A stretch of 42,033 nucleotides of DNA, from NCBI GenBank assembly GCA_018817715.1, contig JAHITT010000004.1, positions 83,751 to 125,783 of the forward strand, read 5' to 3'. The position numbers and the translations under genes are program-made. The notes beneath the pieces are model-generated. The model ran no database searches. It saw nothing but the letters and a program-made list of their open reading frames with translations, and had not been told where the DNA came from. The DNA comes from Patescibacteria group bacterium. Lineage in GTDB: Bacteria; Patescibacteriota; Patescibacteriia; Veblenbacterales; UBA10138. Below are positions 1 through 3,719 of the stretch, one piece after another (position 1 is the stretch's first letter; every line of letters begins with the position of its first letter).

Positions 1-1110
1 GCAGTCAGCACCCTCGGCGCGAGTATTAAAAATATCAATGACTTAAAGAGCGATGAGATTCGTAAACTGGCCTTTGAGAAGATGATCACGAGTATTGAAA
101 GTAACCCCCAGCAAAATTTGTTTAAGACGGCTATTGTAGAAGCGGCGAAGCAGGAGTATGAGTCTATTGTTTCTGAGTTGATTGAAAAGACCATTCCGAT
201 TCCACGTGTCCTCATTCAACAAAAACATGACGTAAAATCCGGCTTTAAGGATTTTGATCTTGATGTCGCTGGTCTTAATTATCAACCGGTATCCGAAGAG
301 ATTATTCGCCGGACACTACGCACCAATGAGAGCGAAGTCTTGCAAAGCGACAGTTCCGGAGTGGCGCGTGATATTCCGGAGAATATTTTAGTAAACGAGC
401 TAATCAACTATCCGGAAGTAGATTATGACCGTGAGTCCGAGCTCTTATACAAACTAGCTCGACAGGCTATCGCCAAGCTTGGTAATGGACGAAACGCTGA
501 AGATTTGGAAAACATCATCCTCTACCACAAACGAGAAATCGGTAAGTATATTTATGCACAATTACAGCAACGCTTCTATTTGGAGAGTTCCGGTTTTGAG
601 GAGCCACTGGTCTATCCATTCGATCGGATAAAGCCCCACAACTTTTCCAAATATACGGCGGACAGCGTGCATCACTACACCGAGACCATCACGCCAACAA
701 ATATTATTCCTTCAAAAGTATTCGGTGGCTTCAAAAAAGCTTGTCATAACCTATATAAGTTTGATTCAAAAGCAGAGAAAGATTTTGCTACGATCCTAGA
801 GAAAGATACCGATGTTTTGAGATGGCTCCGACCAGCCGACTCCCAATTCGAGCTGTATTGGAAGTACAACTCAAAACGCTATCATCCGGACTTCGTGGTC
901 GAGACAGCAGATACGATCTTTATGGTTGAAATTAAAGCCGAAAGAGATATCGATGACGCAGAAGTTCAGGAGAAAGCCGAAGCTGGCAAGAAATACTGCG
1001 AGGCCGCTACCACATTTAACCTAGCTAATGGCGGTAAAAAGTGGACTTATGTTCTTATCCCGCATACAGCTGTCGCGCCGAACATGAGTTTGAAAGGGCT
1101 ATGCAAGTAA
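1..1110 (+). CDS. Type III restriction endonuclease subunit (Res), C-terminal part, 5' truncated by window edge
   Basis: The frame is open from base 1 (369 residues visible), so the ATG at 82 is internal and the N-terminal helicase part lies outside the window. The visible part fits the C-terminal region of type III restriction (Res) subunits, which cut DNA after ATP-driven movement from a site recognised by the Mod methyltransferase. Near the C-terminus (visible residues about 255-320) is a PD-(D/E)xK-type nuclease signature: YHPDFVVE, then MVEIKAE, with Asp about 297, Glu 310 and Lys 312. A FDSKAEKDFA segment before it is also typical. The next gene starts one base after the stop, so the two are probably co-expressed. 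GC is higher than in the core region. A mod gene would be expected upstream but cannot be seen. Confidence 0.82.
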   Translation, partial: AVSTLGASIKNINDLKSDEIRKLAFEKMITSIESNPQQNLFKTAIVEAAKQEYESIVSELIEKTIPIPRVLIQQKHDVKSGFKDFDLDVAGLNYQPVSEEIIRRTLRTNESEVLQSDSSGVARDIPENILVNELINYPEVDYDRESELLYKLARQAIAKLGNGRNAEDLENIILYHKREIGKYIYAQLQQRFYLESSGFEEPLVYPFDRIKPHNFSKYTADSVHHYTETITPTNIIPSKVFGGFKKACHNLYKFDSKAEKDFATILEKDTDVLRWLRPADSQFELYWKYNSKRYHPDFVVETADTIFMVEIKAERDIDDAEVQEKAEAGKKYCEAATTFNLANGGKKWTYVLIPHTAVAPNMSLKGLCK

Positions 1111-1111
1111 T

Positions 1112-3373
1112 ATGATCAGTAAAATATCAAAATCGGATAAAAAGTTTACAGTTAAACAAAAGGCGTTTTTGTATTTCTATAAATCTAGGCAGTATGTTTA
1201 CAATGACTGGTTAATAACAAAGGAGAGGCTGATCAAATTTGTCGACTCTTTTTTGTTTTACTTACTAATCTATAGCATTTTTATATTCACACTCCAAAAA
1301 AGTTTGAACTGGTTAAATGTAACCGTTTCCGAAGATCAGTTACATAATCTCGGCTTTGCCATCGCTGGAATAATTGGTGCTTCAATAGCAATTATATTTT
1401 CTTTTTCTACATTTATTTTACAAAGCACAGCTGATCTTTTTTCTACGCAATATTTACATAAGTTTATCCAAGATAAAAAGGAGAAGTATTTCTTTTGGAT
1501 ATTGGTAGCGTTAACAGTATTATCTTTTTTAACACCAGTATTTCTTAAATTTTCTGTCCTTGAAATATTGCTCACTATTTTATTTATTGCGTTTTATTTG
1601 ATCTACTCTCTATATAAAGAATTAAGAACAAGAATCAGCCCGGATGCAACTCTAACGAAGATCAGAAATGATGCGGTAAAACGTTTAAGTAAAGTAAATA
1701 AGGAACTCAAGAAGCATGCGTATATTCAGGATAAAATATTCGAATACGAAAAAGAAAGCAAAAATCTCTCCTTAGCAATTCAGTACAAATCAAATCCAAA
1801 CTGGAATGTTTTGCCACTTGAAAATGTAAAATATCTATATGAAATAGGTCTTAGGCTTCTCTCAAAAAATGAAATCAACTCTTTCAATTTAACACTGAGG
1901 TACATTCATGACGTTTATCTAAAGCATCTCGGTTTACGAAATGGTCATATCATTAGAGTTCCGGCGAGTTTCTGGGGGGCATATACATTCGAAGACGAGG
2001 GTTTTACTGCAAATATTCTTGAATATTTTGAGTCTATAGGCAACCGAATAATTCAAGATAAGCGGAAGGAAAATATATATTTCTTGCTGAATGTTTACGA
2101 GAATATCATAGCCAATCTCCTTGTTTTTAAGTATGCCGATAACAATATAGGATCACGAGGTGAAAATCCGATCCTAAGTCTAGTTTTAGGTTATTACTTG
2201 GGACTTATTAGTAAGCTAGTCCAAACTAAAGAAAGAGATTGGATATGGGAGGCAATTAAATCAATCTCCAAAGTCTCAAACAGTCTTTTAAGTTCTGAAT
2301 ATAATCACTTTAACCATAATCAAATCAATCAAGCTTTGGATGAAATTACTATAAGCTGTCTTTCATCGAATGAAAGTCAAGAAGCTTTTCTCAAAGAGGT
2401 AGTAAATGTATCTTTCAATCAAATAAAAATTGGTTGGAATAAATACCAAAATAATGAAATCTTTTGGAAAGATCTATTCAAGACCTTGAAGAAAAACACC
2501 TTGGCTCTTGCTCTGGCTCCTGGAATTAATTTGTCAGTAAGTGAATTGTATATAAATTTTCAGGCGTGGTTGGCAGAAGTAATAAACTCAATATTTAAAT
2601 TAGAGGACAAAGATGGGCAAGTAAAACTTCGAGATGCATACATTGATTTACTCGAAAGATGGAGTGATTTTCTGCTAGATATTGCTCGCGACTTTGGCTT
2701 AGAAAATAAGCAGATTGGATTACCTGTTATCCAGTCTGTAGAAAATAATCTAAGAATCATTTATGGCATACAAGGAAAATTTGAACTGAAACTGGACAAG
2801 CTGTACCGAACCCAATTCAATACGCTTAGTTGGTATTTTCATAAGACAGATAAAGTGGATGAGAGTTTCCTTTTTAATCTTGAACAGGTGCATGAACTTC
2901 TACTCAATGAGATAAACGGTAATTTGAGTGAAAAGATTGATAGCACACAGGTTATTGATTTATACATTCGGCTTGTTCAACAACACTTTGAGAAAGTGTC
3001 GGTGGGCTACGGATACAATCATCCACGAGTCATTGAAAAATTCATTCATCTCGGGCTGATTCTAACGAAATACGATTTAGATACTACAGAACTCGTAAAA
3101 CTGATTGATGATCTGAACAAAAAATATCTTGAATTAAATAAGGAATATTTCGACTTAAAATCGAAGACTCCAAACTTGATGGGGCCCGACGAGTACCAAC
3201 TATGTAAAGAAATACACGACCTAGAAAACGATCTATTTTCCTACAACAGTGGGATGGCAATGGGTATCAAACACTTGTTAAGGCAAGAAATAACCAAAGA
3301 TATTTGGGATCGTTTCATTGCGCAGATTAAATATTGCGAAGGAATAAAATATACCACTACAAGTGGTTTTTAA
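1112..3373 (+). CDS. Large membrane protein coupled to the restriction gene (DUF2254-like N-terminus), function unknown
   Basis: A 753-residue protein with four predicted membrane segments in the first 170 residues (about 47-65, 82-105, 126-146, 149-168), followed by about 580 mostly helical, soluble, cytoplasm-type residues. The stretch ILQSTADLFSTQYLHKFI between segments 2 and 3 resembles the conserved patch of DUF2254 membrane proteins, but I make this link from memory of the pattern, so it is tentative. The start lies one base after the stop of the type III restriction gene, which indicates translational coupling and a shared role or shared transfer. The gene is much more AT-rich than its neighbours. 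No nuclease, ATPase or protease motif is visible. Confidence 0.7.
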   Translation: MISKISKSDKKFTVKQKAFLYFYKSRQYVYNDWLITKERLIKFVDSFLFYLLIYSIFIFTLQKSLNWLNVTVSEDQLHNLGFAIAGIIGASIAIIFSFSTFILQSTADLFSTQYLHKFIQDKKEKYFFWILVALTVLSFLTPVFLKFSVLEILLTILFIAFYLIYSLYKELRTRISPDATLTKIRNDAVKRLSKVNKELKKHAYIQDKIFEYEKESKNLSLAIQYKSNPNWNVLPLENVKYLYEIGLRLLSKNEINSFNLTLRYIHDVYLKHLGLRNGHIIRVPASFWGAYTFEDEGFTANILEYFESIGNRIIQDKRKENIYFLLNVYENIIANLLVFKYADNNIGSRGENPILSLVLGYYLGLISKLVQTKERDWIWEAIKSISKVSNSLLSSEYNHFNHNQINQALDEITISCLSSNESQEAFLKEVVNVSFNQIKIGWNKYQNNEIFWKDLFKTLKKNTLALALAPGINLSVSELYINFQAWLAEVINSIFKLEDKDGQVKLRDAYIDLLERWSDFLLDIARDFGLENKQIGLPVIQSVENNLRIIYGIQGKFELKLDKLYRTQFNTLSWYFHKTDKVDESFLFNLEQVHELLLNEINGNLSEKIDSTQVIDLYIRLVQQHFEKVSVGYGYNHPRVIEKFIHLGLILTKYDLDTTELVKLIDDLNKKYLELNKEYFDLKSKTPNLMGPDEYQLCKEIHDLENDLFSYNSGMAMGIKHLLRQEITKDIWDRFIAQIKYCEGIKYTTTSGF

Positions 3374-3410: not shown

Positions 3411-3719
3411 ATGGAAATCGAATCAAAACATCAAATTCTTGAACGGCGGAAAGAGATCGAGCAGGATCTCGTGGAGATGCTCAAGGAGACCGAGAGTGAT
3501 TTTACTTTGGATCATGTCCGGGACGCTATTTTTCACGAGGAGGATAACGACGACATGATGAAAGTCGTGGCTATGTTTGATCGAGGCGGAGATGCCACCG
3601 AACTTGAAAATGTGCTCGAGCTGGTAACCGACGCTTGGAATTATTTTCCACACAAAGTCCTCGGCGGTATCTCCCCAACCGAGAAATTATTAGAGCATCA
3701 CAATAAAACTAAAAAATAA
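3411..3719 (+). CDS. Small acidic protein of unknown function
   Basis: A 102-residue acidic protein, not recognised. The first 60 residues are charged and helical (many E, D, K, R). The C-terminal part contains a compact motif, AWNYFPHKVLGGISPTE. A NYFPH..LGG.SP pattern also occurs at the ends of some transposase-like and SEC-C-like proteins, but this is too short for a call. It follows the restriction cluster by 37 bases, and the TspO-type gene starts two bases after its stop, suggesting one transcript. A TGGACA (3380-3385) and TATAAA (3403-3408) pair with 17-base spacing lies just upstream, but the -10 is only 2 bases from the ATG. Confidence 0.6.
   Translation: MEIESKHQILERRKEIEQDLVEMLKETESDFTLDHVRDAIFHEEDNDDMMKVVAMFDRGGDATELENVLELVTDAWNYFPHKVLGGISPTEKLLEHHNKTKK

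Follow-up and report, generated by a model that had tools for sequence, protein, structure and literature searches.

What does a large membrane protein do directly behind a restriction gene? Restriction-modification (RM) systems are usually regarded as complete two-gene units. In the patescibacterial DNA studied here (G000:C4:83751-125783, a stretch of 42,033 nucleotides referred to as the window), from a genome of 872 kb that is 99.9% complete, the restriction gene of a type III operon is followed after a single base by a gene for a 753-residue membrane protein, here named Mem. A sequence-only reading of the window had offered two answers, an added effector or abortive-infection partner of the RM system, or a passenger. 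We weighed these and other explanations by comparing the gene, its product and its neighbourhood with those of related genomes.

Results

Mem follows a type III restriction-modification operon

The features of the locus, in window coordinates, are as follows.

1..1110, + strand: C-terminal 369 of the 883 residues that Res has in the genome, with its PD-(D/E)XK nuclease motif; PADLOC REase_III, 2.7e-57.
1112..3373, + strand: Mem, an ORF of 753 aa; membrane protein with four membrane helices and a big soluble part predicted to be all-helical; sits in the apparent exchange slot.
1238..1615, + strand: Mem membrane module, residues 43-168; DUF2254-like, PF10011 at 22.1 bits over residues 46-203; contains invariant columns.
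1640..3370, + strand: Mem soluble domain, residues 177-753; predicted cytoplasmic alpha-solenoid (AlphaFold2 model mc51bd0f0cb06, pLDDT 71; charge pattern).
3353..3367, + strand: terminator-like hairpin ACCACT-ACA-AGTGGT followed by T5, spanning the Mem stop codon (L002 17104-17118).
3411..3719, + strand: conserved 102-aa gene, 81% identical in DNA to L080 5002-5303; right edge of the slot here and in G328.

The gene upstream of Mem had been read as a type III restriction gene, and the REase_III match and the motifs bear this out, with the window holding only the last 369 residues. The first 514 codons lie outside the window, and Res is complete in the genome. There the operon runs in the order AbiEi-like protein (198 aa), DrmD-like SNF2 helicase (982 aa), Bro-N protein (279 aa), Mod (528 aa), Res (883 aa) and Mem (753 aa), with gaps of one base between Bro-N and Mod, Mod and Res, and Res and Mem. 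The full Res matched the PADLOC family REase_III at 1e-191 and Mod matched MTase_III at 1e-188. Since catalytic motifs are present in both proteins (GVGKT, DESH and PD...EIK in Res, DPPY in Mod), both look intact. Judged from its genes and motifs, the Mod-Res pair is a type III RM system.

The TAA stop codon of res ends at position 1110 and the ATG of Mem stands at 1112, as the earlier reading had it. The hairpin at 3353..3367 might conceivably end the operon 3' of Mem; such sites are no commoner here than in shuffled sequences. The very different base composition that the reading had pointed out is also real. The GC content of Mem is 33.1% (GC3 33%) compared with 45.1% (GC3 47%) for res and 42% for mod, and the SNF2, Bro-N, Mod and Res genes together range from 42 to 47%.

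Mem joins a DUF2254-like membrane module to a helical solenoid

Four membrane helices and a big soluble domain had been proposed for Mem, and both were recovered. The hydropathy profile has four helices starting near residues 43, 80, 127 and 149, and the positive-inside charge pattern places both ends of the protein, by prediction, in the cytoplasm. The AlphaFold2 model, built from five sequences, is all-helical (pLDDT 71, pTM 0.61), with four membrane helices followed by a stacked solenoid. The membrane module carries an invariant block, AGIIGASIAI-FSFSTFILQSTADLFSTQYL, of columns conserved without exception.

Like DUF2254 proteins (PF10011), Mem shows its likeness over the membrane module. 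However, the scores of Mem (22.1 bits) and of its homologue in G040 (19.4 bits) are below the Pfam gathering cut-off of 28.8 bits, and a distant relative in G085 (35.4 bits) is the only one above it. The alignment of Mem covers the N-terminal part only, and the solenoid domain is peculiar to Mem. No PADLOC 2.0 family matched Mem up to E = 1, NCBIfam gave it no label, and no catalytic or enzyme motif was seen in it. In sequence searches of the PDB, Mem as a single sequence had no match and its profile had one meaningless match (E = 3.1). A Foldseek search with the Mem model against the PDB and viral models returned generic alpha-solenoids and helical repeats with query TM-scores of about 0.2 or less, which were rejected as relatives.

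Close homologues stand behind two kinds of restriction system

The Mem family is rare. Among 381 genomes of the class we found three full-length close members (the window Mem included), one fragment and two distant relatives. Searches of 380 genomes across the phylum gave only marginal matches, to the Mem helices, and none was found in the plasmid, phage-record and IMG/VR collections.

The close full-length homologues are 62-77% identical to Mem. The 77% homologue (L006, genome G278; also recovered from GTDB contigs) has its start immediately behind the stop codon of a gene for a GmrSD/HNH nuclease, and that gene is itself preceded by one for an EcoRI-type methylase. The 62-63% homologue in G040 stands behind another pair of EcoRI-type methylase and GmrSD/HNH nuclease, with a 93-aa gene intervening. 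Thus close members lie behind restriction genes at all three resolvable loci, one type III system and two type II systems, and Mem is associated with restriction systems of two unrelated kinds. The sequence-only reading had named the neighbourhood of homologues as the point on which its proposal should be judged, and outside restriction loci only the two remote relatives were found, 23% and 17% identical, with pilin or metabolic genes beside them. Defence is therefore not the only setting of the wider DUF2254-like group.

The fragment, in G053, is cut by a contig end. Contig G053:C59 has RM genes at its end, but joining the fragment to them was rejected because the next gene there is not Mem. 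The operon in question (L127:1-2807) is broken off by the end of that contig and comprises genes for a DPPY methylase and a 579-aa GmrSD-like nuclease and one more gene; it may or may not be the RM partner missing beside the fragment. Behind the G040 homologue (L007:6281-9312) are a Schlafen AlbA_2 gene, a HARE-HTH gene and, on the opposite strand, a gene for a 325-aa reverse transcriptase.

Mem appears to have entered each operon separately

The only DNA common to the window locus (L002) and L006 is the Mem gene. Nucleases about 80-85% identical to the two type II partners of Mem occur in G151, G049, G273, G307, G129 and further genomes of the class, and no Mem homologue is present in any of these. 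Similarly, G328 has a Res 92% identical to that of the window genome, yet it is without Mem. Because only Mem DNA is shared and relatives of its partners are found without it, Mem appears to have entered each operon independently, as judged from sequence comparison of three loci rather than from a phylogeny. A separate origin, which the earlier reading had suggested from GC content, agrees with this picture.

A gene for a large serine recombinase (L002:1598-3241, 547 aa) lies about 4.5 kb 5' of the operon and overlaps the terminal part of a tRNA-Asn gene (L002:1565-1639). This overlap probably marks the integration end of a defence island. The attachment repeat that a duplicated tRNA-Asn end would leave was not found at the right edge of the island. 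The G040 locus is near tRNA-Asn genes and the L006 locus is located between two tRNA-Ser genes, which fits islands that integrate at tRNA genes.

The site behind the nuclease gene is occupied by known anti-phage genes in related operons

The locus of G328 is 81% identical to the window locus in DNA through res. The identity ends 4-6 bases past the stop codon (TAATATGAT) and similarity resumes at the 102-aa gene. In the place of Mem, G328 has an AbiP2 reverse transcriptase (PADLOC, 5.7e-173), a PD-(D/E)XK protein and a TIR-domain protein. In G054, PD-T7-3 (1.8e-156) begins three bases behind an SNF2-Mod-Res operon. The occupants behind type II nucleases include PD-Lambda-5_A, a KAP ATPase, PDC-S06 (twice), an LmuB/PtuA-like ATPase, and IetA with IetS; some other occupants are no known defence gene.

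PADLOC matches below 1e-10 were present at 8 of 16 slot loci and in at most 4 of 64 background genes (Fisher p = 1.4e-4), an upper estimate of the enrichment since the slot set was picked for long same-strand neighbours. Most of the background matches look like housekeeping cross-matches (DndA/SspA-type, RmuC, radical SAM), and a PolA-like match at L106 was excluded from the count as probably housekeeping. The site behind the RM nuclease thus seems to be an exchange slot for stand-alone anti-phage genes, with Mem as one occupant. The open-access literature searched held no description of Mem or of the slot.

Membrane proteins without a family label were also seen directly behind GmrSD/HNH nucleases. 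The longer two are of 837 aa (L086:4862-7375, - strand) and 582 aa (L090:4149-5897), and no relationship of Mem to either of them was detected. Three others in that position are of 208 aa (L082:512-1138, - strand), 269 aa (L102:2937-3746) and 219 aa (L113:4116-4775).

Discussion

The best explanation for Mem, which we hold with moderate confidence, is that RM operons have an exchange slot at their 3' end and that Mem is one of the stand-alone anti-phage accessory genes carried there. It is preferred because all three close homologues lie behind RM genes of two kinds, relatives of the nucleases occur without Mem, and known anti-phage genes occupy the same slot; the informative Mem loci number three. 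The broader statement, that Mem is a defence accessory gene of some sort, is more secure and we consider it probable. The same evidence, taken from sequence, favours the effector or abortive-infection side of the earlier reading.

From its start one base after res, Mem would be transcribed with the RM genes. The cytoplasmic helical solenoid may sense infection, and the activated protein may then disturb the cell's own membrane, an abortive infection. Mem would serve in this way as a second line or backup when a phage escapes cutting. Whether its action is abortive and directed at the membrane is about an even question. That it is triggered specifically by the failure of restriction is rather doubtful.

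Several known systems resemble this arrangement. Like PrrC, the RM guardian in the EcoprrI type IC locus (PMC12707154), Mem would be an accessory abortive gene inside an RM operon, the abortive role of Mem being the presumed part of the likeness. The two differ in that PrrC belongs to a type I locus and is a soluble nuclease of tRNA, and Mem is a membrane protein that follows nucleases of type III and type II systems. AbiP2, PD-T7-3, PD-Lambda-5, IetAS and PDC-S06, as labelled by PADLOC, share with Mem the slot behind Res or a GmrSD/HNH nuclease, but they have no detectable sequence likeness to it. Auxiliary or backup effectors are also found in BREX operons (PMC12839542), where they are likewise exchangeable extra effectors in a modification-based defence operon; those catalogued there are nucleases, unlike Mem, a membrane protein in RM operons. 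Makarova et al. 2012, as cited in PMC12707154, had proposed that immunity is coupled to suicide modules. RM loci with abortive accessory genes are already known, and what is new here is the membrane-protein family in the RM slot.

A more ambitious version of the preferred reading joins two claims, that a 3' RM slot common to type II and type III systems is general in Patescibacteria, and that Mem is a new class of membrane effector, with a DUF2254-like module and a solenoid sensor, which fires when restriction fails. Taken together, we regard these as somewhat unlikely. Its last element can also be stated alone: Mem would be a guard, silent while Mod-Res works and firing when a phage inhibits restriction. 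The coupling of Mem to several RM kinds and its layout of sensor plus membrane part would suit a guard, for which PrrC and PARIS are precedents (PMC12707154). But the type II and type III enzymes are unrelated, and a single sensor could register the failure of both only through a common signal; most of the slot neighbours (AbiP2, PD-T7-3, IetAS), moreover, are catalogued as independent defences and not as RM guards. We consider this explanation improbable.

An unrelated membrane protein, for example one for transport or envelope upkeep, could instead be carried in a mobile island and expressed from the RM promoter. The distant relatives outside RM loci, the differing GC content of Mem, and the mobile island indicated by the large serine recombinase and tRNA-Asn upstream all speak for such a passenger. 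On the other hand, Mem arrived by the present comparison three separate times in one type of slot, in which other loci often have anti-phage genes, and a neutral passenger is not expected to recur behind RM genes. We give the passenger the same low standing as the guard. Least probable by a clear distance is a working restriction subunit, for example one tethering Mod-Res at the membrane to cut incoming DNA; the close spacing, with Mem beginning a single base past res and, in L006, immediately behind the stop codon of the nuclease gene, would suit it, but the role is very unlikely because the partner enzymes (a type III helicase-nuclease and a GmrSD/HNH nuclease) are unrelated and close relatives of each are found elsewhere without Mem.

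If the slot behind RM genes is common and is filled by exchangeable stand-alone anti-phage genes, it would account for the stacking of several defences in a single operon of a very small genome. It would also give a search rule for new anti-phage families, namely to inspect the gene 3' of a restriction gene. By this rule Mem and the unlabelled slot membrane proteins of 837, 582, 208, 269 and 219 aa are ready anti-phage candidates. Mem would provide, moreover, the first functional setting for DUF2254-like membrane modules.

Other genes of the operon

The Bro-N gene, which stands 5' of Mod in the type III operon, corresponds to the PADLOC candidate PDC-S13 (L002:9781-10620; also L100:51-881 and L108:2079-2924). 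In G095 a relative of it is located between the methylase and nuclease genes, and in G353 one immediately precedes the nuclease gene. These relatives lie in type II operons, so accessory genes are common to type II and type III operons. The DrmD-like SNF2 helicases at L002:6774-9722 and L081:4374-7316 are 70% identical, whereas the Res proteins of their two type III operons are only 37-39% identical, and the helicase may therefore move on its own. Beside the AbiEi-like antitoxin gene (L002:6146-6742), no AbiEii toxin gene was recognised.
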